Assembly (NCBI GenBank): GCA_950295325.1
Contig: OX485803.1
Location: forward strand, 30,442,001-30,506,000
Length of the DNA: 64,000 nt
Origin: Polytrichum commune
Taxonomy: Eukaryota > Streptophyta > Polytrichopsida > Polytrichales > Polytrichaceae
Reading direction: 5' to 3'
Within the stretch, counting starts at the first letter, position 1; every line of letters starts with the position of its first letter. Positions 4,462 to 64,000 of this stretch are shown here, piece after piece. Under the pieces are notes generated by a model. The model worked only from the letters and a program-made list of their open reading frames with translations. It had not been told where the DNA came from and ran no database searches. The position numbers and the translations under genes are program-made.

Positions 4462-5932
4462 TTCCCCTCCCTAGCTTCCAACTTCCCACTATCTTGGCTC
4501 GCTAGCCCCCCGCTCCCTCGCCCGCCAAGAGCTTCGCGGTGCGGTGCGGTTTCCTAGCCCTCGTTGAGGAGGTAATAGTAAAAACATGCCCCCTATAGGT
4601 TGGAAAGAGGGTTGGGACGAACCAACCCGTACACTGGTTCCTTGGAGGAAAGTGCATCCCTTCCCTTCCAACTTTTCACTATCTTGGCTCGCTAGCCCCC
4701 CGCTCCCTCACCCGTCTAGAGCTTCGTAGTGTGGTGTGGTGCAGTGCGGTGCGGTGCGGTTTCCTAGCCCTCGTTGAGGAGGTAATAGTAAAAACATGTC
4801 CCCTATAGGTTGGAAAGAGGGTTGGGACGAACCAACCCGTACACTGGTTCCTTGGAGGAAAGTGCATCCCTTCCCTTCCAACTTTTCACTATCTTGGCTC
4901 GCTAGCCCCCCGCTCCCTCACCCGTCTAGAGCTTCGTAGTGTGGTGTGGTGCAGTGCGGTGCGGTGCGGTTTCCTAGCCCTCGTTGAGGAGGTAATAGTA
5001 AAAACATGTCCCCTATAGGTTGGAAAGAGGGCTGGGACGAACCAACCCGTACACTGGTTCCTTGGAGGAAAGTGCATTCCCTTCCCTTCCAACTTTTCAC
5101 TATCTTGGCTCGCTAGCCCCCCGCTCCCTCACCCGTCTAGAGCTTCGCAGTGTGGTGTGGTGCAGTGCGGTGCGGTGCGGTTTCCTAGCCCTCGTTGAGG
5201 AGGTAATAGTAAAAACATGTCCCCTATAGGTTGGAAAGAGGGCTGGGACGAACCAACCCGTACACTGGTTCCTTGGAGGAAAGTGCATTCCCTTCCCTTC
5301 CAACTTTTCACTATCTTGGCTCGCTAGCCCCCCGCTCCCTCACCCGTCTAGAGCTTCGCAATGTGGTGTGGTGCAGTGCGGTGCGGTGCGGTTTCCTAGC
5401 CCTCGTTGAGGAGGTAATAGTAAAAACATGTCCCCTATAGGTTGGAAAGAGGGTTGGGATGAACCAACCCGTACACTGGTTCCTTGGAGGAAAGTGCATT
5501 CCCTTCCCTTCCAACTTTTCACTATCTTGGCTCACTAGCCCCCTGCTCCCTCACCCGTCTAGAGCTTCGCAGTGTGGTGTGGTGCAGTGCGGTGCGGTGC
5601 GGTTTCCTAGCCCTCGTTGAGGAGGTAATAGTAAAAACATGTCCCCTATAGGTTGGAAAGAGGGTTGGGATGAACCAACCCGTACACTGGTTTCTTGGAG
5701 GAAAGTGCATTCCCTTCCCTTCCAACTTCCCACTATCCTGGCTCGCTAGTCCACCCCCTTTCCCCCCCCCCCCTTCGCCCACCTAGAGCTTCGCGGTGCG
5801 GTTCAGTGCAATCTCCTAGCCCACGTTGAGGAGGTAATAGTAAAAACATGGCCCCTGTAGGTTGGAAAGAGGGTTGGGACGAACCAACCTGTACATTGGT
5901 TCCTTGGAGGAAAGTGCATTCCCTTTCCCTTC

Positions 5933-5991
<59 letters not shown>

Positions 5992-6060
5992 GCGGTGCGG
6001 TGCGGGCTCCTAGCCCTCGTTGAGGAGGTAATAGTAAAAACACGTTCCTTATAAGTTGGA
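4462..6060. repeat. Minisatellite array, about eight units of 210-211 bp
   Basis: The marker GGAGGTAATAGTAAAAACAT recurs with spacings of 210, 210, 211, 211, 211, 209 and 194 bp (GGTAATAG at 4571, 4781, 4991, 5202, 5413, 5624, 5833, 6027). The central five units are nearly identical, so the array expanded recently. The two right-hand units are divergent and one carries a (CT)n run. Each unit contains GACGAACCAACCCGTACACT, which is also the arm of the hairpin repeats at 6068-6150 and 22483-22563. The repeated open frames of 60-86 codons are a by-product of the array. A decayed single unit lies near 7020-7090. Confidence 0.95.
5936..5988. repeat. (CT)n microsatellite inside the 210-bp array
   Basis: A CT dinucleotide run of about 52 bp replaces part of the last-but-one minisatellite unit. 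Confidence 0.95.
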
Positions 6061-25500: not shown

Positions 25501-26863
25501 TGAAGTCCTCACCATAGACTCCCTTCCCTCGTCTCGCGAGAAGACACCGTAGACCAACACTAGCATGTACTAGTCCAAGTCCTATCTAATACCATGTCTA
25601 AATTGCACCCAAAAGACTCACGTGCAAAGACTGCATGTGTTCTTGGCCAAGGGCAACAATTGGCGGATTAACCAAGCTCCTCCCCCATACCTATTATTAT
25701 TCCATATATTGGAGCCCACCGTTGGCCAAAGAAGATTTCTATAGGCGGTGGCATATGATGATCATGGACCTCTATCATGCATGCACAATGTTGAATTCAT
25801 TTTTATTGGACGACCTTAGCATCCATGAAGATGTTGCCCTTAAATCAAGATTTTTGGATGCCATGAGGAGGTTGACCATATGCATTAACTGTTGATACAG
25901 TCAAGTTGTGGCCAAATTCCATCATTTAAGAAGCGTAGAGGTGCATTTGCCAATATGCCTCTAGCCATGGAAGCCAACATTCTATCCAACGAGTGGTGGG
26001 ACCTTTGTGGGCGAAAGTGGTACAAACTTGGCCCTCTTGGCCAAGTGTGTTCCTCTTTGTTGTGCGAAAGAAATTGAAGCAACTATTCAATTTGAACTCA
26101 CCAAATATTTGAGAATCTTAGCCATGGCCCACAAATTGCCCTGGCTAAGCTGAGTGATGTTACAAAGTGAGATTTTGGATTTCCAAATTTAGGTGCCTAT
26201 CAGAGAGGAGATCAAAGTTCATTGATTGGGTGATATATATATATCTTACATATTGAACATGAATGTCACTTTTAAAGAATAACCGATTTGGGTTTTATGA
26301 GCCCAAAATGAGTGCTCATATTGGTTTTACGTTTAGAATTTATTTAGAATTGCATTTGGAGTGTTATCAAAACAATCAAAAGTATAAAAAGAGTGAGGCT
26401 TGGTGTGGATTTATGTTTTAGGCCTTAAGCCCATTTTGTGTGGTTAATTAGAGGCTTAGTGACATTAGGTAGTGTTTGGTTAGGTGTGTAGTATTTGATG
26501 AAGCAAGGGGAAGGGCCTTGGACTTTAATGTTTGAATTAGAACATGCTCTTGTTGGTTTAGAGGGTGAGGATTTAATGGATAGGATAAGGTCCTACTAAG
26601 TAGGAGAAGGTTAAGGGGCTTGTGGTCTTGGGTGCCCCCTCCTCCTCCTCCTCTCCTCTCTTCATTTTTTCTCTCTTCTCCTCCCCCCTCTCTCTCTCTC
26701 TCTCCTCTCTAGGACTTTGGAGCTCTTAGAGCTAAAAAAGAATGTGGGAATTAGGTAAGGGTTTAGTAGAACTAGTGGGCTTGTTTAGAGTAATTAGGTA
26801 GTGGGTTTGGTAGGATTAGGTAGATAGTTGGAGAGGTTTAGGTTGGGTTGCAGCCAGAGTTGT
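25501..26863. other. No gene recognised
   Basis: Contains a CT-rich run at about 26640-26710 and short chance open frames. Nothing else is recognised. Confidence 0.35.
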
Positions 26864-27215
26864 ACTACTTACAGTTGAGGCTTACATTTGCAGTCCAGGG
26901 CCTATCTGATTACACTCGAAGCTTATACAGGTGCAGTCCAGGGGCCTAACTGATTACAGTCGAAGCTTATACAGTTGCAGTCCAGGGGCCTATATGATTA
27001 CAGTCGAAGCTTATACAGTTGCAGTCCAGGGGCCTATCTGATTACAGTCAAAGCTTATACGAGTGCAGTCCAGGGGCCTAACTAATTACAGTCGAAGCTT
27101 ATACAGTTGCAGTCCAGGGGCCTATCTGATTACAACCGAGGCTTACAATTGCGGTTCCAAGGGCCTATCTGATTACACTCGAGGCTTACATTTGCAGTCC
27201 CAAGGGCCTACAAGG
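26864..27215. repeat. Tandem array of about eight 44-bp units
   Basis: GATTACA(G/C)TCGAAGCTTA recurs at 26908, 26952, 26996, 27040, 27084, 27128 and 27171, giving periods of 44, 44, 44, 44, 44 and 43 bp. Each unit carries GCAGTCCAGGGGCCTA. The period is not a multiple of three and the 78-codon open frame across it (27063-27299) is judged non-coding. Confidence 0.95.
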
Positions 27216-36854: not shown

Positions 36855-37760
36855 CGCAGAAAACTTGGCAAATCACACTTTTTGGGGGCAGAGCTTCGGA
36901 ATCGATTCGCCAAGACTCTCCTTTCACGAGGTCCGCAGACCGATCACGCGGAGGTTGCCATTTGGTTCAACACTAAAATATGTGTTGCAAGGCTTGGATC
37001 TGTCAACATCACGCTGATAGGTCCTGTGGTGTTGTAACTTACAACACTTGTGTCATCTTGTTCTAAAAAGCTCTAAGCCTCCAATGTTCGGAATCATGCC
37101 TGCCGAAAGAGGATGTTAGCAACACGTTGACAGAATGAAATGACGTGCAGACCAGACAGAAACTTGGAAAATCACACTTTTTGGGGCTGAGCTTCGGAAT
37201 CGACTAGCCGAGACTCTCCTTTCACGAGGTATGCAGACCGATTATGTGGAGGCTGCCATTTGGTTCGACACTAATTAATATATGTGTGTTGCAAGGCTTG
37301 GATCTGTGAACATCATGCTGATAGGTCCTGTGGTGGTGTAACTTACAACACTTGTGCCATCTTGTTCTAAAAAGCTCTAAGCCTCCAATGATCGGAATCA
37401 TGCCTGCCAAAAGAGGATGTTAGCAACACGTTGACAGAATTAAATGATGTGCAGACCAGACAGAAACTTGGAAAATCACACTTTTTGGGGCAGAGCTTCG
37501 GAATCGATTAGCCGAGACTCTCCTTTCACGAGGTATGCAGACCGATTATGGGGAGGCTGCCATTTGGTTCGACACTAAAATATGTGTGTTGTAAGGCTTG
37601 GATATGTGAACATCACGCTGATAGGTCCTGTGGTGTTGTAACTTACAACACTTGTGCCATCTTGTTTAAAAAAGCTCTAAGCCTCCAATGCTCGGAATCA
37701 TGCCTGCCAAAGAGGATGTTAGCAACAAGTTGACACAGTTAATCGACGTGCAGACCAGTG
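36855..37760. repeat. About 300-bp unit tandemly repeated three times
   Basis: AATCACACTTTTTGGGG starts at 36871, 37170 and 37474, giving periods of about 299 and 304 bp. Each unit also has GAGACTCTCCTTTCACGAGG-like, ATAGGTCCTGTGGTG and AAGCTCTAAGCCTCCAATG blocks. The copies differ at about one base in twenty. No reading frame stays open through the units. Confidence 0.92.
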
Positions 37761-49657: not shown

Positions 49658-49808
49658 TACATAACATTATTTAGATCTATAACAATGTTATGTGGGACTG
49701 ACAATATTTCATAGAATATTCTCCACATTCAAATTTGAATATGGGGAATATTTTGTGGAATACTGTCAGTCCCACATAACATTGTTATGGATCTAAATAA
49801 TGTTATGT
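49658..49808. mobile_element. Fold-back MITE, copy 2 (about 150-bp near-perfect hairpin)
   Basis: The left arm TACATAACATTATTTAGATC and right arm complement CTACATAACATTATTTAGAT continue through AACAATGTTATGTGGGACTG on both sides, meeting at a short AT-rich centre (TTCAAATTTGAA). It is the same family as 24760-24888. Transcripts through it would form a long double-stranded stem, like many miRNA- or siRNA-producing MITEs. Confidence 0.9.
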
Positions 49809-50707
49809 AGTACATGAAATGCGTACAATACCATAACAACCTTCTTTGCCATACCTCTACATCTAAGAGCAACTAGAACATCGTACCCAATATGTTTTAG
49901 ATATTGTACAAGAGGAGCCTTACTACGGGTTATAGCCCCAGGGGGGTCACAATATTTTAGAACACTACGTGAGAACATATATAGGGTATATTGTCAAGTT
50001 GTGAGTTACAACTTATAGAACATGTACTTGTAACAAAGCTCAAGTTATATATTGAACTCCATGGTATAAATAAATTGGGGTGTTTGTAAATTGATCATGT
50101 TAGAGAAGTTTTAAAACTAACATACCGTAGGGTTCAGTAGGGTGGGAAATTAAAATAATATATATTAGGGTTCTATTCTATGGATGAGCATCATTGGATG
50201 ACATCTCCTGCATGTCCCATGGTAGTTGGATATAATCTATGAGGTTAGATGCGGGAAGGGCTCACAATGGCTTTGTGCATTTTGTTTGGCTTTGAGAGCT
50301 CCCAGTTAGGATTTGTGAAAGCTCTTTGAAATTTATATGTATGTGCAAACTCCCACCATATTGATGTTGATGGTTGGTTATTGAAGGTTGGACAGTAGGC
50401 ACACGTGTATAGTTGAGCTCCTTAGATGCGCCCATCTCAAACCTTCATTTTTTCTACTTTTGGTTGTAACACTATATTCGTTAATTGGAGACTTTGGAAA
50501 GTCTCAAAATAAATTGGACCCGTAGTTTCGGATGCGAATATTGTGAACGTAGCGAACATGGGGAACATGGGGAACAATGGCAACATAATGTTTTAAAGAT
50601 CCATATGTGATGAATATATATGTTTCTAAATATAGTAATTATTCAGTTGATAATCAAAACTATGCCAACACAATATTCCAATGACACGAAATTGCAAATT
50701 AGCATCT

Positions 50708-50900
50708 GCAATATAATTATATAGTTTAGGGTTCACATCCGTAAAAACACAGACATAAAAAACATTTGGATTCCACATCCGTAAATCAATGCATCCATGC
50801 AATATAATTATATAGTTTAGGGTCCACATCCGTAATAACACAAACATAAAAAACATTTGGATTCCACATCCGTAAATCAATGCATCCATGCAATATAATT
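50708..50900. repeat. 91-bp tandem repeat (2.1 copies) carrying half-palindromes
   Basis: GCAATATAATTATATAGTTT starts at 50708 and 50799 and a partial third copy starts at 50890, so the period is 91 bp. Each unit has two CACATCCGTAA half-sites, which match one arm of the palindrome family at 52.6-55.1 and 62.1-62.7 kb. It lies just downstream of the DUF7869-like gene and may mark that side of the element. Confidence 0.9.
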
Positions 50901-51015: not shown

Positions 51016-54000
51016 TCATTCACCATCTTCATCTTCTGCTTCATTTCCATTCTCGACATTGTTTTCTGCAGCAGCAATACGTGCCAAGTTGTCTTTGGCA
51101 AAATCTATATGTTTTTGGGGGATGGTCATTGTTTCAATTTTGGAACCTTTGCGTGGTTTCCAAGCACAAAGTATGGTATCCGTGTTTATCCATATTGGTT
51201 CGTATGCTGAGTCCATTGTCCATTTGAAACTTTTTTTCGTGTCCCACCCTAAATATGTGCGGAGCACATTTTGATCTTTGGTGCTTGGACGGCAATATTC
51301 CACCTCAATTTGACGAAAATTTGGGCTAGTTGGAACAAAATTTGGTGATGACAATGCTTTCACCAACCAAATCGGTTTAGGATGTTCCTCATCTCCAGGA
51401 CGTACGAGGACCATATAACCTTCGTAGCAATCAATAGCCACACGAAATGATGGAGCCGGGCGATTACGAGCAGGGCCAACATAATGGTCGTCCGCCGCGA
51501 ACTCTTCACGAACGTCCCCATTGTTGAAGAACATGGCCTCAGATTCCACGATTGTCACTCGGCTTAGTGGCCAAAAACCTTGTGTCAAACATGATGGTCT
51601 ATCGTCTTCGGGTGCTAGCAACGCTGAGCGGATGCGATCCCAATACGCAATCAATGGTTCGTGGGTATCCCGAACATGTCTTGTGATGTCTTCCTCGCAC
51701 AAATCTTTCCAGTACTCGATGAATCCAGATATACCTTTGATGATTTCTGGTCCATTCATCATGGGGTTGGGTTTGCAGGGCTTCGGCTCCCCATCAGGTA
51801 GCATACATTTGCCATCTTCGTTTTGGCGCCATACGAGTATCCCTTCCTCTGGGCCCCAATTCGGGGAGGTACACAAAACTTTGAATTGCATGGCCGGCAG
51901 ACCATCATCACGCATATAGAATCGGAATTGTTGAGCCTTGGTATGGCCCACTAAGCGGTCACCTCCCTTAAGAATGAATGGTTTGATAAATGATTTGAAA
52001 TCGGGCACTTCTTCAATCAAATGCGGGATGACTGGCACATTATCCAAATCCATGTACGATTTCATGAAAAGAGGAATTGTGGGAAAATCCTCCTCGTGCA
52101 ACTTCATACTCCAACGTCCGAATGAAGCGTCAATGTCATCGTGCGTGTGGCCAACCATCAAAAAAGACACAAACACTTCTTTGAAAATGCCCTTGGCTAC
52201 GAGCAATGACCAAAAACAAAATACGTATCGACATTTGTTGTCCTTGGCACAATTGTCAAGTTGCACGTGTAGAGTTGGAGGCAAAGGTTTAGCAAGAACG
52301 GGTTGTTCAGGCGGTTCTTGCAGTGAAGATAGGCAAACCTCCTTCCCCTCTAACACAGCCTCATAAATCGGTGTTGTTCCACATCCAACAAAAAGAGCAC
52401 GAGAGGATGATGTGGGCGGACTCTCAAGATCTCGTAGAAGTTTTGCAAAAGACCCTACGGTATGATTGGCGTCGCCAGGATAGAAATCCAAGCCATAATG
52501 TGCATATTTCACGTCCACATGACCATGTGCGATCATACCTGCATTTAGCCACACAAATCGTATATATGAATGAAATTCAAAAATTTCCCCAAGCAAGCAA
52601 AAAAATGTACACTTACGGACGTACATCCGTAAATCTTAACAATGAGTATGTGGGCGCGCAAAAAATAAATGTGAAAACCAACAAACCTGTGACAGATATT
52701 GGAAGCTTGAAATATCCATCTGTAGCCTTTATTTTCCGCGCATAACAAGGGCACGCCGTCTTTGCATGGTCCATTTTGTCATGAATGATTGTCAAAACCT
52801 CATTCGGCCTCATTATCGATAATGCGCGATTCTTGTAGTAGTCTTGACGGTGTGCCTCCTGGTTGTTGACATGCTCAATGTATTTCAGTTGATGTCGGTT
52901 GTGGGACTCAGTCCCAATGGGATGTGCATCTCAAAGGCCTTTATATTTCTCACAAGCAGAACACCTGGCAAACTTATCCCCAGGTCTCTTCGTAATGTAT
53001 TCTGCGAATTGTTGATTCTTGATCACACTCAATTTTGACAACGAAATCGGCCCACATCCAGTCTTTTCGCCAACTTCATTAACATCCATAAGTATGTTCT
53101 TCCATTTTGTCCCTGTAGGCAAAACCATCTGAACAACCTTTTCCCCCGACGGCAGAGTTCGCGTCTTGTGTGGCATCGCATCTGCCAATGGCATAATGAT
53201 GGTTGATAGTGTTGCAGCCGCTTGGAGTGTTGCCTCCCTAGGCTTCTTTGTGCAAGAGTTGCGATGGAACCGAGAACGGCGTCCTTGCATCGAGTAGTTC
53301 CGGAACCTATAAAAATCTGCCTTTGAAACTGCATGTATAATGTACCATGCCTTGCAACATATCTCGACATTTTCCAAGGTCACAACCTTACGACCTTCGA
53401 CATCAAGATGCATGTTGCGATGGACTTCAAGTTTCTTTGCAGATCGCATACGAAAGTCCGCGAGCCACATCTCTTATCTCAAAGATTTGATCTTGTCACG
53501 GGGAAATAGTTGGCAACATCTCTTTGCACAACAATCATTTGTTGCTACGGACCTAATAGATGTATCTCCCAATGTTTGATCTCGACGACGTTGCGTGGGT
53601 TCACGAGGCAAACGAACGGAATCATATTTACGCCGACCCATTCTAGGGCGCATTGTGGAGAACAATGCTGATTGCATTTGATCAAAACGGCGGGAATGAT
53701 TCCACAAGCTGACACCATCATGAAGAACACTGCGCAACGGCCATCGACGAAGAGAGAATCTCCAACCAGAAGGCACTTCCAACGGATGTAAGGAATTCAA
53801 AATGCATACCCCCACATCTTCTTCCCCAAGGGGATTTGCATCAATACAATCCGTAGGATTTGAGTTCCGACAAACACCATCGGCCACGGAGACGCCACAT
53901 CCATTGAGGATGACGACATTAAGATCAATCCACTGCTCCCGGGAATAACCCTCACATGGTGGGAGGAATTCATCCTCTACATTGGCGACACCAATTGTAG

Positions 54001-54091
54001 TTTCTTGTTCCACGACAACTTCAAACTCGCTAGCATAGCTTGACGCTTCCGACGAAAAATCAACCCCACTATCACCGACGTTGGAATCCAT
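51016..54091 (-). pseudogene. DUF7869-like predicted transposase, two in-frame stops
   Basis: Exon 1 (52687-54091) and exon 2 (51016-52538) join in phase across a 148-bp GT-AG intron to 975 codons (start at 54091; an in-frame upstream ATG is at 54151). The frame is broken by TAA at codon 206 (53474-53476) and TGA at codon 387 (52931-52933), yet conserved sequence continues in the same frame past both. Blocks include MWLADFRMRSAKKLEVHRN, a C-x2-C pair (FARCSAC, codons 377-380), DKMDHAKT (codons 438-445), GMIAHGHVDVKYAHYGL, HVQLDN (Asp563) and VGHTHDDIDASFG (codons 602-605), ending in an acidic tail. The spaced Asp residues suggest an RNase H-like nuclease fold, and this protein type is typical of uncharacterised mobile genes in seed-free plants. 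Palindromic repeats lie upstream and in the intron. TGA fits CpG decay of an Arg CGA. Recoding is possible but less likely than a dead copy. Confidence 0.72.
52539..52686 (-). other. Intron of the DUF7869-like gene containing a palindrome copy
   Basis: Donor CACAG-GTTTGT and acceptor AATGCAG-GTATG join ISVT to GMIAHGH in phase. The intron holds a decayed palindrome copy at 52611-52634 (CTTACGGACGTACATCCGTA inner part). Confidence 0.75.
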
Positions 54092-54234: not shown

Positions 54235-55080
54235 GGTATACGAACGTGCGTCCGTATACCTCCATGTAATAACATCAGCAGCGCAAGCACACGCGCATAC
54301 GGATACATTGATGTGTTCATAGGAGCGGAAAGGAGGAGGCAAAAAAAACATCACTGGTTTATGGACGCGCATCCGTAAATCGGCTCGTACACATAGTTCA
54401 GTTAAACCCTCAACCAAAACAAAGGTATACGGACGCGCGTCCGTAAACATCCGTATGACAAACATCAATGTAGTCCTAAACAGAGGTTCAAGGAAGCAAG
54501 AGGTCCTCCAAACATGGCCATATATACACAGGCCTGACGACTCATGAAATTTGAAGAGGTTTGAACACGGCCATACGCGCTTCCTAAAATGTTTAATCAC
54601 TGTCAAATTATTATAGTATGACACATAGGGTGATGTAGGCTAAGGGATGCGAGCTCCCAACCCTTCATGACCGTACAGTCTCACTGCAGTCTCAGTCTAC
54701 ATGGCACATTATGGTAACAAAGCTTTCCAGGTTTACGGACGCGCGTCCGTAAACCTCTGTGGACCTCATTCCTAGCATAAAGACAGTGATCGATGGAATA
54801 CACCTCTGTGGACATCATTACTAGCCTAAATACAATGTCCAACGCGCCAAGGGGTTTACGGTTTACGGACGCGCGTCCGTAAACTTCCATGGTAATATAT
54901 TGTCGTTGTGGTGCTCTACACGACAGGTGGTGTAGGTGACCTACAGAACTATAGCACCAAAGGTATGCAGGTTTACGGACGCGCGTCCGTAAACCTCAAC
55001 GTACATGAATATTGGCTCAAACAAATAAAGGTTCAATGAACCAATATGTTTAAGGTTTGCGGACGCGCGTCCGTAAATCT
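54235..55080. repeat. Palindrome cluster 1, upstream of the DUF7869-like gene (7 copies)
   Basis: Copies of the palindrome with inner 20 bp TTACGGACGCGCGTCCGTAA or close variants lie at 54235-54260, 54357-54380, 54425-54448, 54729-54756, 54861-54884, 54969-54996 and 55055-55078. Those at 54729 and 54969 are perfect over 28 bp (AG...CT flanks). Sequence between them is unrelated and spacing is irregular (68-306 bp). All lie within 1 kb upstream of the start codon, so they fall in the promoter, the 5' UTR or a 5' intron. The cores keep their CpGs in an otherwise CpG-poor neighbourhood. Confidence 0.95.
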
Positions 55081-55528: not shown

Positions 55529-56173
55529 GGATCTCTGTATTTAAGTGCTACGAGCGTTTGTAGGACGCCTCCCGCGGGCAGCGTTCATGCTCCGGCAGCC
55601 CGTTCCTGTCCTCCCGTCCCGACCCGTCCTCCCGTCCTGACCCGTCTTACCTGCCCGAATTGGCCTTCCTGCCCGTGTCCTCCGTCCTGCCCGACGCGTC
55701 CTCCATCTTGCCCGATGCGGCTTTCCGCCTGTCCAGCTGTCCACGCGTCTGTCCAGCTGTCCACCCGTCTGTCCATCCGTCATATCCGTCTCCACCACTA
55801 CCCCACACCGAACCCGAGCTCCGTCATTCTTCCTTGCTCACGCCACTAGATAGCTCTGGAGCGAGTGAGGAAGTTGGGGAAAGGTTGTTGCATTGCTAGT
55901 TTAGGGTTTGGAAGAGTTGTAACTTTGATTGATGTTGTCTTAGTCGCCCGCCATGGAGGTGGACATTGTGGATCTGGGAGGGAAATGTGTCTCTTTCGAA
56001 GAAGGGTTTGATTTTGTAATAGAGGAGGCCACGGAAGATGTACAGGACGGACAAGGTTTAGTTTCATATCTAAAAATTCTTCTGTCATTCTTCTGTCATT
56101 CTTCTGTCATTTTTTCTTGCTCACGCCACTGGACAGCTTCGGAGCGAGTGAGGAAGCTGGGGAAAGGCTGTTC

Positions 56174-56435
56174 AAATCTGGAAATTCTTGCCAGGACGGA
56201 CGATTATGAGGACAGGCGATTGTACTTGCTAGTTTCCGATCTGGAAGTTATGAGGACATGTAATGGGTTTGAGGCCATGCAGGCTGAGGCCTCGTCCTGG
56301 ATGAGAGCTTGTTTCTGGAATGCCTGCTTGGATATGTTGGCTATGGACAAAGAGGATGATCTTTGTGTCATGTGGTTGGACGCGTCAAAGGACACAAATT
56401 TTGGTGGTGGAAGGCGAGTGCAATACAATCGTTGA
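56174..56435 (+). CDS. Unrecognised 3' open frame inside the MULE
   Basis: The frame opened by MEVD in the left arm (55953) runs on through the interior to a stop at 56433-56435. The interior part reads LEILARTDDYEDRRLYLLVS, then FEAMQAEASSWMRACFWNAC, LDMLAMDKEDDLCVMWLDAS and GGGRRVQYNR. I do not recognise it. It could be captured host sequence, the end of a second MULE gene or chance. The frame lies opposite to the transposase remnant. Its regular composition (few stops, balanced residues) argues mildly for descent from coding sequence. Confidence 0.3.
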
Positions 56436-56599
56436 TAATGTTGTGGAGTTTAGTGCTATTTTTTAGAATAATGGTGTAGGATGTTACAATAAGACAAGGT
56501 AGAACCAATGTAATGTTGAATCATAATAGGACACATTTATGATAGGTGAGAACCATTACATGTCCACTTCGGACACATGAGTATTGATACATTGGCTCC

Positions 56600-57467
56600 T
56601 ACCCATTTTCAATAAAGTATCATTGTTTGTTGAATTTTGAATATAAGTGAAACTTCGGCAATTGGGAATTTTCGGAAAACAAACAATTTAGTAAAATATG
56701 ACAGGATATGTATAACATTGGTGTCCTGGAAAGACTTTATGCCTTCCTCATTGAATTCAGTAACATTGTAATATATCCTATCAATGTCATATATCAATCT
56801 ATGCAACATCCATTGTTTTCAGTGTTGTCCTAACATAATCTAAACTCCCATGACAGACTTGTCCAACCTTGTTGAAATGGTTAATTTTATGGTACTGAAT
56901 TTCACATAAAGTGTTGTCCATATACAGTTGCTTCGCCACAAAATTGCATTGGCATCCTTGCTTAGAGGTTAGACTAGCTTGCAATCTACTTGCCCTCCTC
57001 TGCTTTGTCTGTCCTATTGGGAGTGGTTGCCATGTGAGATTTTTAGGACAGCTTGTATCAGAGTCAGAGGCTGTAGAAACAACTGGACAACTAAAGGTGG
57101 AACAAGAGGTGTCTTTGTACTATTTTGTTTTTTCACTGTCCTAGCATCTAGGGTTGATCCTACCCCGTCCTTGGTTGATTTTCTCCTCCCAAGAAATGTT
57201 TGTCCTGTCAAAGGGCCCAGGGGGTAGGATCTGCAACCTCGCCCGCATATTTTCAAGAGTTACATCCCGCACCCTAAACCTTTCTTATGCACCAGCTTTC
57301 AAACACGTATTGGTGTCCTTGTGGACGATTGTATCTGCAGGAATTTCCAGATCTGAAACTAAACCATATCCGTCCTGTAGATCTTCCGTGGCCTCCTCTA
57401 TAACAAAATCAAATCCTTCTTCGAAAGAGACACATTTCCCTCCCAAATCCACAATGTCCACCTCCAT
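56600..57467 (-). pseudogene. MULE transposase N-terminal remnant
   Basis: From ATG 57467 the frame reads MEVDIVDLGGKCVSFEEGFD, a stop, ERFRVRDVTLENMRARLQIL, two more stops near GRGRINPRC and SEKTK, then RASRLQASLTSKQGCQCNFV and CEIQYHKINHFNKVGQVCHG, all in one frame down to 56799. After a frameshift, LIYDIDRIYYNVTEFNEEGI follows to about 56600. A basic stretch, then CxC...HxxxH and CHG, is the zinc-binding FAR1/GCM1-type DNA-binding module of plant MULE transposases. The catalytic DDE domain is missing. Three stops and one frameshift rule out function. A second copy of the MEVD start lies at 57750, in the right arm. Confidence 0.65.
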
Positions 57468-58174
57468 GGCGATCGACTAGGACAACGTCGATCAAAGTTA
57501 CAACTCTTCCAAATCCTAAACTAGCAATGCAACAGCCTTTCCCCAGCTTCCTCACTCGCTCCGAAGCTGTCCAATGGCGTGAGCAAGAAAAAATGACAGA
57601 AGAATGACAGAAGAATGACAGAAGAATTTCTAGATATGAAACTAAACCTTGTCCGTCCTGTACATCTTCCGTGGCCTCCTCTATTACAAAATCAAACCCT
57701 TCTTCAAAATAGACACATTTCCCTCCCAGATCCACAATGTCCACCTCCATGGCGGGCGACTAAGACAACATCAATCAAAGTTACAACTCTTCCAAACCCT
57801 AAACTAGCAATGCAACAACCTTTCCCCAACTTCCTCACTCGCTCCGGAGCTATCTAATGGCGTGAGCAAGGAAGAATGACGAAGCTCGGGTTCGGTGTGG
57901 GGTAGTGGTGGAGACGGATATGACGGATGGACAGACGGGTGGACAACTGGACATACGCGTGGACAGCTAGACAGGCGGAAAGCCGCGTCGGGCAGGATGG
58001 AGGACGCGTCGGGCAGGACGGAGGACACGGGCAGGAAGGCCAATTCGGGCAGGTAAGACGGGTCAGGACGGGAGGACGGGTCGGGACGGGAGGACAGGAA
58101 TGGGCTGCCCGAGCATGAACGCTGCCCGCGGGAGGCGTCCTACAAACGCTTGTAGCACTAAAATACAGTGATCC

Positions 58175-61824: not shown

Positions 61825-62073
61825 GTAAGTGTTTCTAGTACATTGCAAATTGAAATGGAACATTCTTCTTAGTTTGGAGTGTAGAATCTACTATTGCAAT
61901 GCAACACCTGATATATTCTAATTTGGAGTGCAAATCCATGTTGCATTCCAAGTAAAGATGAACATTGCACATGAATGGAATGCAACAAAAAACCTGTTCC
62001 GAAAATTTCGGAGCAATATCCAGAAACACAGTAATTGTGCAAAGTAATTAAATTCAGAATAATTAAAAAATGG

Positions 62074-62699
62074 CCTGAAGTTTACGGACGCGCGTCCGTA
62101 AACTTCAGGGAACCCTGGGAATATGCATCGCACTATGTGTGAACAGTTTACGGACGCACGTCCGTAAACTGTAGATATATTTAAAAAGAACTATTTAAAA
62201 ACATGAATGATAAGTTTACGGACGTGCGTCCGTAAACTTGAAATATCTAAGTACACTAAATGTGGTACATGATACATGTGCAGAGTTTACGGACGCGCGT
62301 CCGTAAACTAGGCAGCAAAAACTATGAAAATCTCAGAGTATAATACATGTCATGGGTTTTCAAAATAAGTTCTACAAAATGTACAAGTTCTACACAACAA
62401 AAATGAACTTATTTTCCAAGAATTTACGGACGCACGTCCGTAAATTAGGGCTACATAATAATAAAAAACATATTATATTCATGGAATATAGAAATAGAAA
62501 CTTTTGGATGATATATGTGCAGAGTTTACGGACGCGCGTCCGTAAACTCTGCACATATATCATGTATGTGATTTCTTTTTATAAGATATCTCAAGTTTAC
62601 GGACGTGCGTCCGTAAACTTGACATGTACTATAACATAATACATAACCACATTATATAGGAAAGAGTACGCAAAGGTTTACGACCGCGCGTTCGTAAGA
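62074..62699. repeat. Palindrome cluster 2: regularly interspersed palindromic array (8 copies)
   Basis: 24-bp cores lie at 62080-62103, 62146-62169, 62214-62237, 62285-62308, 62422-62445, 62524-62547, 62595-62618 and 62676-62699 (last decayed). Centre-to-centre distances are 66, 68, 71, 137, 102, 71 and 81 bp, so most spacers are 42-57 bp and largely unrelated to each other. Cores share TTACGGACGCGCGTCCGTAA, with GCAC or GTGC at the centre in some. Perfect self-complementarity extends beyond the core in several copies: 36 bp at 62074-62109 and 56 bp at 62508-62563. Flanking extensions differ between copies. Confidence 0.97.
62508..62563. repeat. 56-bp perfect palindrome
   Basis: The core copy at 62524-62547 is flanked by ATGATATATGTGCAGA on the left and its exact complement TCTGCACATATATCAT on the right. 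The left flank resembles that of the copy at 62285 (ATGATACATGTGCAGA), whose right flank is not complementary. So here the left flank seems to have been copied, inverted, to the right side. Confidence 0.97.
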
Positions 62700-62752
62700 T
62701 AGGCTCTGCATCCCCAGACCTTAATACTGACTTGTATATTTTACATTTGCAG

Positions 62753-64000
62753 ATGGAATCTACAAAAAGACCCGCTATTGATTTATTCGCAGAGCTTGTC
62801 CATCCTCCGCTTCCAAAAGCCATCAAAGACGTAAGCCACAACGACCATTACAAGCCACGCGAAGACATTGTAGATAACTGGACAGTTATTGTAGAAAAAG
62901 ACGAAAATGATATATTTGTCCTTAGATTTGCCTATCAAATAAAAGCAGATATACATGAATCCGAGAAGTGGATGAAGGTAAAAAACTGGACAGTAGAGTG
63001 TGCGGTAGCCCAAGGTGATTATGTTGTCATTGACCTTGAAAAGAAAAATGATAGGATCACATTCATTTTGCACGAGTTGTACTATCCGTTCAACAAAAAT
63101 GAATGTGAAAATGCCAGCCCAGATGCGTCTTGCTTCAATTTACAGAATGAATTCCAAGACTATGCATGCAATGCACCCTGGACGGGTAAACGGCTTGGAC
63201 GTCTCTTGAACAATATGACAAGAGTAAATGGGGCATTACTAGAAGCCAAAAAAGGAAAGGCGAAAAAACCAGTTCCTGAACGACCTAAACGTGTTCCTAA
63301 ACACGTGCCAGAAGCCTCGAGACCCTCACAGAGTGGGGCATCAAGAGGGAGCAAGCAGACTAGTAAACGTTCCCACTCACAGATGGAGTCGTCAGGGCTA
63401 ACAGAGGGTCCAGATGTGAGCTCTACTCTTACTGTCGCACCACTCCTGAAGAAAGGACAACGTCCTGACGCCGAACTTTCCACAAAGATTTTCCAAGAGT
63501 TCGACGAGAAGACAAAGGGCTGCTGGCCACTTGGAAGATATTTCACGTTTGATGTGGATGTCTACAAATGCCACAAGGGCACGGAGAGTATGAATACTCG
63601 TGCCAAAGAAGAGACCGGGGTGTGGTGGCAAATGAATAACATTATGAACAACCCCAAATTTGATAGGCAAACCATATGTGTGACACCAAAGGATCCTGTG
63701 GTTGAAGTCACAGCGCAAAACTGGCCAATTCTCAAAGATGGAGAGTTCTACATAGTCGACGGCCAACATAGTGTGATGGCTGCAAAAGCTCTCCTAGAGG
63801 ACGATGAGTGGAAGAGCCCTTTGAAAGAGACAATCCGATACTGGAAGGCATTCGTCGTCCATTCCAAAGACTCGAACCAGCTCATCGCAATATCTGCCTT
63901 CATGAACCAAGGGAATAAAGTGAGGCAGTTCGAGGCTTCATGGGCTGCCAACATCGTGGCTGGAAGGACCTTGTGGGTAGAGCATGATTGTCCCCCAAAA
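62753..64000 (+). CDS. ParB/DGQHR-like protein, partial (runs off right edge)
   Basis: The ATG follows a TTTGCAG acceptor and the frame stays open for 416 codons to the window end. Residues 1-160 form an unrecognised acidic-basic domain. About 164-217 is a basic, Pro/Ser-rich linker (KKGKAKKPVPERPKR, SKQTSKRSHS). From about 235 a second domain contains FYIVDGQHSVMAAKALL (Asp336-Gly337-Gln338-His339) and, 40-50 residues on, FMNQGNKVRQFEASWAANIV (Asn385). A hydrophobic strand, DGQH, an Ala-rich helix and a later xN-x-K/V-x-F helix match the layout of DGQHR/DndB and ParB-Srx proteins, which bind or cut DNA or act as nucleotide-driven clamps. Ser340 replaces the usual Arg. The assignment is by motif only. 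It is likely the second gene of the palindrome-bearing element, divergent from the DUF7869-like gene. No stop or frameshift is seen. Confidence 0.65.
   Translation, partial: MESTKRPAIDLFAELVHPPLPKAIKDVSHNDHYKPREDIVDNWTVIVEKDENDIFVLRFAYQIKADIHESEKWMKVKNWTVECAVAQGDYVVIDLEKKNDRITFILHELYYPFNKNECENASPDASCFNLQNEFQDYACNAPWTGKRLGRLLNNMTRVNGALLEAKKGKAKKPVPERPKRVPKHVPEASRPSQSGASRGSKQTSKRSHSQMESSGLTEGPDVSSTLTVAPLLKKGQRPDAELSTKIFQEFDEKTKGCWPLGRYFTFDVDVYKCHKGTESMNTRAKEETGVWWQMNNIMNNPKFDRQTICVTPKDPVVEVTAQNWPILKDGEFYIVDGQHSVMAAKALLEDDEWKSPLKETIRYWKAFVVHSKDSNQLIAISAFMNQGNKVRQFEASWAANIVAGRTLWVEHDCPPK

Follow-up and report, generated by a model that had tools for sequence, protein, structure and literature searches.

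The palindromes that recur near the end of a 64,000-nucleotide stretch of the Polytrichum commune genome (contig OX485803.1, positions 30,442,001 to 30,506,000; referred to here as the window) are part of a large, recently active family of DNA transposons with terminal inverted repeats (TIRs) and a DUF7869 transposase. We consider it very probable that they are the sites by which the element recognizes itself. That they are read by a protein of the element, probably the product of its gene B, to sustain expression or counteract silencing is an explanation which, taken as a whole, we hold with about even confidence.

The window contains 15 matches to the 20-mer TTACGGACGCGCGTCCGTAA at up to three mismatches, and none were found in shuffled sequence. 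Eight of the matches form array B (62074-62697), first noticed in a sequence-only reading that had placed eight palindromes between 62074 and 62699. All eight are present, starting at 62082, 62148, 62216, 62287, 62424, 62526, 62597 and 62678, with start-to-start spacings of 66, 68, 71, 137, 102, 71 and 81; seven are intact and the last is degenerate, with three mismatches. The same reading took a CG-centred palindrome as the repeating unit. Its arms are retained here and its centre is not: the exact 20-mer occurs in three of the eight sites, and four of the eight deviate solely at the central CG, which reads CA or TG, so that the unit becomes TTTACGGACG-NN-CGTCCGTAAA, with a free spacer of two nucleotides. 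Array B is housed in what is plausibly a 5' intron of gene B (61825-62752, plus strand), delimited by splice signals, the donor CAAAG/GTAAGTG at 61825 and the acceptor TTTGCAG/ATG at 62752/62753. The proposed location in an intron of a ParB-like gene thus holds, but the array is not an isolated one; it is one of several groups of sites, with about 21 palindromes per element. Among the seven remaining window sites with at most three mismatches, six lie in 54359-55076 and, together with a four-mismatch site at 54238, form array A (54238-55076, seven sites) immediately upstream of the start of gene A. The seventh (52613-52632) stands alone within the gene A intron (52539-52686). Five further sites follow past the window end, all within 3.2 kb. 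At 62508-62563 in the window, and at position 722 of locus L059, sites are part of longer palindromes, perfect or nearly so, whose arms measure 28 to 56 nt; the flanks of these extended palindromes are unique to each site, which suggests a palindrome-copying process behind them.

The element that bears the arrays extends from position 50468 of the window to 5.5 kb beyond the window end, a length of 19.07 kb. Intact copies measure 16.4-16.6 kb; the extra length of the window copy is due to a 2.6-kb insertion nested at 55529-58174, whose inverted ends measure 644 bp (97%); it is not found in intact copies and is outside the system. The TIRs, AACACTATATTCG[G/T]TAATTGGAGACTTT, mark where the sequence common to the window copy and a second copy stops. 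The left TIR, AACACTATATTCGTTAATTGGAGACTTT, occupies 50468-50495 on the plus strand and is preceded by the target site duplication (TSD) TTGT at 50464-50467; the right TTGT comes directly after the element end, at C1:30511533, outside the window. A 4-bp TSD was found in the window copy and in all ten further copies for which both ends were fetched, examples being ACTA, ATAT, CATA, TCAT and ACAT; the copies at C5:52.10 and 52.14 Mb, counted among the ten, represent an inverted duplication of one insertion. With identical flanks in inverted orientation, these two (C5:52095203 and 52143446) form a segmental inverted duplication of which the element is part. The best-matching genomic ends are 98-100% identical on the right and 92-100% on the left, and since ends up to 98-100% identical occur in many copies, the family has been recently active. 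Close to the left end, a 91-bp tandem repeat in subterminal position (50738-50888, plus strand) includes three single half-sites, TCCGTAAA. Elsewhere in the window, a 152-bp near-perfect palindrome (91%) is situated just beyond the element edge, at 49658-49809, and unrelated tandem repeats are found at 4536-6007 (period about 210 bp), 26854-27189 (about 44 bp) and 36880-37711 (about 304 bp).

Genes A (minus strand) and B (plus strand) of the element are divergent, and a third gene, C, encodes a NIF-like phosphatase (Pfam E 8e-12). Gene A consists of exon 1 (52687-54091), with two in-frame stops in the window copy, and exon 2 (51016-52538), whose splice sites were assigned by analogy with an intact copy in which the intron is canonical (ACAG/GTTTGT...TGCAG). 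The sole Pfam match in gene A is DUF7869, in exon 2 (PF25273, E 3.5e-39). The protein is conserved around LDNCAKDNK and GHTHDDID. From its conserved acidic motifs and its position, we take gene A to encode the transposase. A structure prediction of the DUF7869 protein reached a pLDDT of 36 and did not yield a DDE fold, and a literature search on DUF7869 found no papers.

Exon 1 of gene B (62753-64000, plus strand) runs past the window end and encodes an N-terminal beta domain followed by a ParB-CTPase-like domain at approximately residues 258-390, with a DGQH box. In the intact copy the gene begins at TTTGCAG/ATG, and both of its following introns are canonical (intron 1, CAG/GTATGT...TTGCAG; intron 2, TTG/GTAAGT...GTGCAG). 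Residues invariant across 15 B proteins include GQH at 337-339 and A343 of the DGQH box, and N385. The structural model has an overall pLDDT of 59, with values of roughly 60-87 over most of the domain. Residues 264-392 of the model match Myxococcus ParB with CDP or CTPgammaS with a Z score of 11.5 and an rmsd of 2.2 over 95 residues; the next matches are Noc, PadC and KorB, followed by sulfiredoxin (Z 7.4), and unrelated folds score at most 5.4. A Foldseek comparison with Noc gave a probability of 1.00 and an E value of 1.2e-3. At the sequence level the ParB match is weak (phrog_1033, E 0.043). Because a profile comparison with phage ParB returned nothing, the assignment rests on predicted structure, according to which the gene B product would have a ParB-type CTPase fold. 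No DNA-binding domain was recognized in B; a helix-turn-helix was sought, and Pfam was blank on exons 1 and 2. The N-terminal domain resembles the PH/PTB fold only weakly (Z about 5), a similarity that was not trusted, and a PDB match of exon 2 to a cytochrome contained no significant stretch and was disregarded. The end of exon 2 is conserved, with the motifs N-x-FGGxK-x-x-x-AALVS and DFRxxPG (loci L005, L041 and L066-L068). By eye it resembles motifs I and IV of DNA methyltransferases, an assignment that was dropped, as it was unsupported by Pfam, PDB or profile comparison.

Methyltransferase-like sequences were also encountered elsewhere in the assembly. The small contigs C10 and C12 (L070, L071, L072) are apparently bacterial or phage contamination; C10 has a GC content of 0.61-0.64, and C12 codes for a phage-like protein that combines ParB and N6/N4 methyltransferase parts. 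Open frames of 577 amino acids at C4:44111740 (L073) and C1:9662150 score against the N6_N4 methyltransferase model, and the former has a LDLFVGTGASFHAAK motif; these frames may represent another transposon gene.

A genome-wide search for the array B motif at up to three mismatches, as the sequence-only reading had proposed, retrieved 6407 sites versus 2 for the reversed control, a figure not used as a site number since it mixes the array B motif with a sister motif two mismatches off. With exact arms, the genome contains 1310 sites of the array B motif (family I), 3737 of the sister motif (II), 9731 of f2, 819 of f3 and 211 of IVc, together 15,808 exact sites for the five motifs, with a reversed control of 0 for each. 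In C1:0-39 Mb, a gene B match of at least 79% identity is found no more than 15 kb away from 70 of the 71 exact sites among the matches listed, where 0.5 would be expected; the 71st belongs to a cluster inside an internally deleted copy of the element. Conversely, sites accompany all nine gene B matches of at least 79% identity in this region and none of the three at 53% identity. For f3, 41 of 50 sites among the matches listed are within 25 kb of an f3-type gene B match. The sites cluster with the element's genes. Of the functions suggested beforehand, binding by a protein that the element itself encodes is the best explanation of the palindromes; cleavage found no support.

Within the elements the palindromes occupy matching places, namely introns, 5' regions and intergenic DNA, and full sites are concentrated in the middle of the element rather than at its ends. 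An intact copy, c4, has seven sites just upstream of gene A and one in the gene A intron; in gene B it has eight in the 5' intron, one in intron 1 and two in intron 2. A three-mismatch site falls in the tail of B exon 3, which is disordered, and another site just past the B stop codon. In f2, two sites are in an open frame, which may be the exon 3 tail. An internally deleted copy that lacks gene B has retained ten sites.

Comparison loci, picked purely for encoding DUF7869 or a B homologue, showed that the palindrome in a given intron changes from one lineage of the element to another within this genome; in total, there are at least eight lineage-specific motifs. They have a common design of two inverted half-sites of about 10 nt flanking two free bases. 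The gene B group of 53% identity carries TTTACGAACG-NN-CGTTCGTAAA, f2 carries TTTGGGTCG and f4 carries GGTGAGGCA; the f3 motif is CCCACGGGTG, and an 87%-identical relative of f3 has CCCACGGGCG. A more distant B group has CCTCKCG, TTCCACTCG, TTTCACTCG and CTTCCTCTCG. Between the sisters I and II, a single base in each half-site is different, and the change is symmetric. The sequence-only reading had described the spacers as unrelated, and in array B of the window copy they are mutually unrelated; this is not so in other lineages, where tandem units of 95, 135 and 53 bp repeat their spacers. Such conserved spacers do not refute a function of the sites, because the arrays in these other copies are ordinary tandem repeats. 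The IVc arrays (L060, L061, L062) consist mostly of tandem units of 73-75 bp, and their centre is AT in every listed site, unlike that of other families.

The motifs track the lineages of gene B, with a Mantel r of 0.83 that is descriptive and reflects common descent. As they equally track gene A and the whole element lineage, this correlation does not single out B. Two observations count against the explanation preferred below: the N-terminal domain of B varies within lineage II (68-79% identity) under an unchanged motif, and no DNA-binding domain was recognized in B. The TIRs of f2, which also has a 4-bp TSD, and of family I are nearly identical although the motifs differ, from which it follows that the palindromes are not the end sites of the transposase and that two separate recognition systems exist.

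This last result bears on the view that the palindromes are bound by the DUF7869 transposase or a host factor for transposition, in the manner of the subterminal TnpA sites of Spm/CACTA. The sites are indeed part of the element and are found upstream of both genes, and the left subterminal repeat contains single half-sites, yet the full sites are in introns in mid-element, and lineages with different palindromes have common TIRs. We regard this explanation as improbable. The view that the palindromes are selfish micro-repeats without function, which accumulate in introns by palindrome-prone replication or tandem duplication, is no better placed. It accounts for the variable array sizes, the tandemly duplicated units of some lineages and the symmetry of the flanks, which suggests a copying mechanism. 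However, the arms are resistant to change, unlike the central CpG and the spacers, which decay: in family I, 33 of 93 distinct contexts have an altered CpG, compared with 0.005-0.08 substitutions per base in the arms, and the central pair of f2, f3 and IVa is usually non-self-complementary. A copy with 84% identity to the window lineage in exon 1 has unrelated spacers (55%) in the 5' intron, and the palindromes are intact in both. Moreover, unrelated motifs occupy the same introns across lineages, and essentially all listed family I sites are inside elements.

Hairpins in the RNA, which might control splicing, retain the transcript in the nucleus or serve as a source of small RNAs, had also been suggested from the sequence. 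They are less favoured than protein binding, and we consider them unlikely, if marginally less so than the two preceding explanations. The sites are in spliced introns and fold very strongly (z -19.6), as any palindrome would. Self-complementarity extends past the core: at 12-16 bases from the centre it amounts to 0.53 versus 0.36 in shuffled sequence in family I (p 0.0003) and 0.48 versus 0.32 in f3b (p 0.004), and not clearly so in other families. In these two families it exceeds what simple dimer binding requires, and it may reflect how the palindromes are copied. Changes in the arms, by contrast, are mainly one-sided, with 18 single-arm changes versus 2 matched double changes among independent family I sites. 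The sequence of the half-sites is conserved beyond pairing over thousands of sites with a free centre, and arrays survive in an element without gene B. Finally, the ParB-type fold that adjoins the arrays raises the idea that the element uses them as ParB uses parS, to load a protein for its segregation or copy control and not for gene expression. No ParA-like gene was recognized, as Pfam finds only the NIF-like phosphatase, and a chromosomal transposon has no need of a partition system, which makes this idea very unlikely.

In the explanation that we prefer, the palindromes would be operator or loading sites for a DNA-binding protein of twofold symmetry encoded by the same element, most probably B. 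Half-sites that are symmetric about a free spacer suggest a DNA-binding protein that acts as a dimer, and lineage-specific sites in the element's own introns suggest self-recognition. The best candidate for the reader is B, and we think it likely that it is, because ParB proteins nucleate at palindromes, from which they spread (PMC7053999, PMC8367383). The protein would load where its own element carries the palindromes, in introns and 5' regions, and B would perhaps spread from them as ParB does from parS; binding and spreading at the palindromes are both inferred. Loaded protein could then keep its own element family expressed or unsilenced by a self-targeting of the VANC type, although our confidence that anti-silencing or transcriptional control is the purpose falls slightly short of even. 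Protein and motif would diverge jointly, such that each lineage reads its own sites. More tentatively still, we propose a eukaryotic system of ParB-like clamps in which plant transposons encode CTPase-fold proteins, each with a loading palindrome of its own that recurs tens of times in the introns of its element; a single genome would then contain at least eight protein-site pairs that mark self against silencing.

Such a system would be the second with self-targeting motifs in plant transposons and distinct from VANC. If B is the reader, the ParB CTPase fold would be used for the recognition of DNA sites in a eukaryote; a survey published in 2025 lists sulfiredoxin as the form of the fold most common in eukaryotes and mentions, in the main text, no case from a plant or a transposon (PMC12704722). 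The presence in one genome of many lineages with differing symmetric motifs and matching proteins is a natural experiment on the evolution of protein-DNA specificity, which bears also on whether transposons evade host silencing by marking themselves. The predicted pairing of proteins with sites is directly testable in vitro.

Known transposons differ in their TSDs, which are 8-9 bp in MULEs, 4 bp in Sola1 and 3 bp in CACTA/EnSpm elements, the latter having a Transposase_21-type transposase. The element described here resembles CACTA/EnSpm, with its TnpA sites, in its large size, in a TIR that contains CACTA and in multiple repeated sites for a candidate protein; it differs in that the TIR starts with AACACTA, the TSD is 4 bp, the transposase is of the DUF7869 type and the sites are intronic, not subterminal. 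The 4-bp TSD is common to Sola1. Sola1-1_Ec32 of Ectocarpus encodes an accessory protein with ParB-like and DNA-methyltransferase parts that was proposed to bind its own element (PMC12477816). In that giant DNA transposon, to which similar algal proteins can be added, the ParB-like accessory gene is likewise on the strand opposite the transposase; it differs in that a methyltransferase domain could not be demonstrated in B, where just the FGGxK motif is seen by eye, and the paper describes no palindrome arrays. With ParB-parS, and also with Noc and KorB, the system shares the predicted CTPase fold and palindromic sites near the gene. It departs from them in belonging to a plant transposon with no ParA found and no helix-turn-helix recognized, in a GERR-type box that reads GQH, and in many diverged sites, one per lineage. 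In Arabidopsis, the protein VANC relieves VANDAL elements of silencing and binds family-specific motifs in their non-coding DNA (PMC5735166, PMC10398659), and its motifs occur in introns of the transposon (PMC5735166). VANDAL elements have a MULE (VANA) transposase, while only DUF7869 and a 4-bp TSD are found here. The VANC21 motif YAGTATTAY is short and arrayed in one orientation, and the paper makes no mention of palindromes (PMC5735166), as opposed to the palindromes of 20-22 bp described here, and the candidate reader differs from VANC in its predicted ParB-CTPase fold. Both systems have family-specific motifs that are dense in the introns and non-coding DNA of their own element and spread as tandem repeats, and by analogy with VANC the system described here may employ an element-encoded protein that acts through short motifs.
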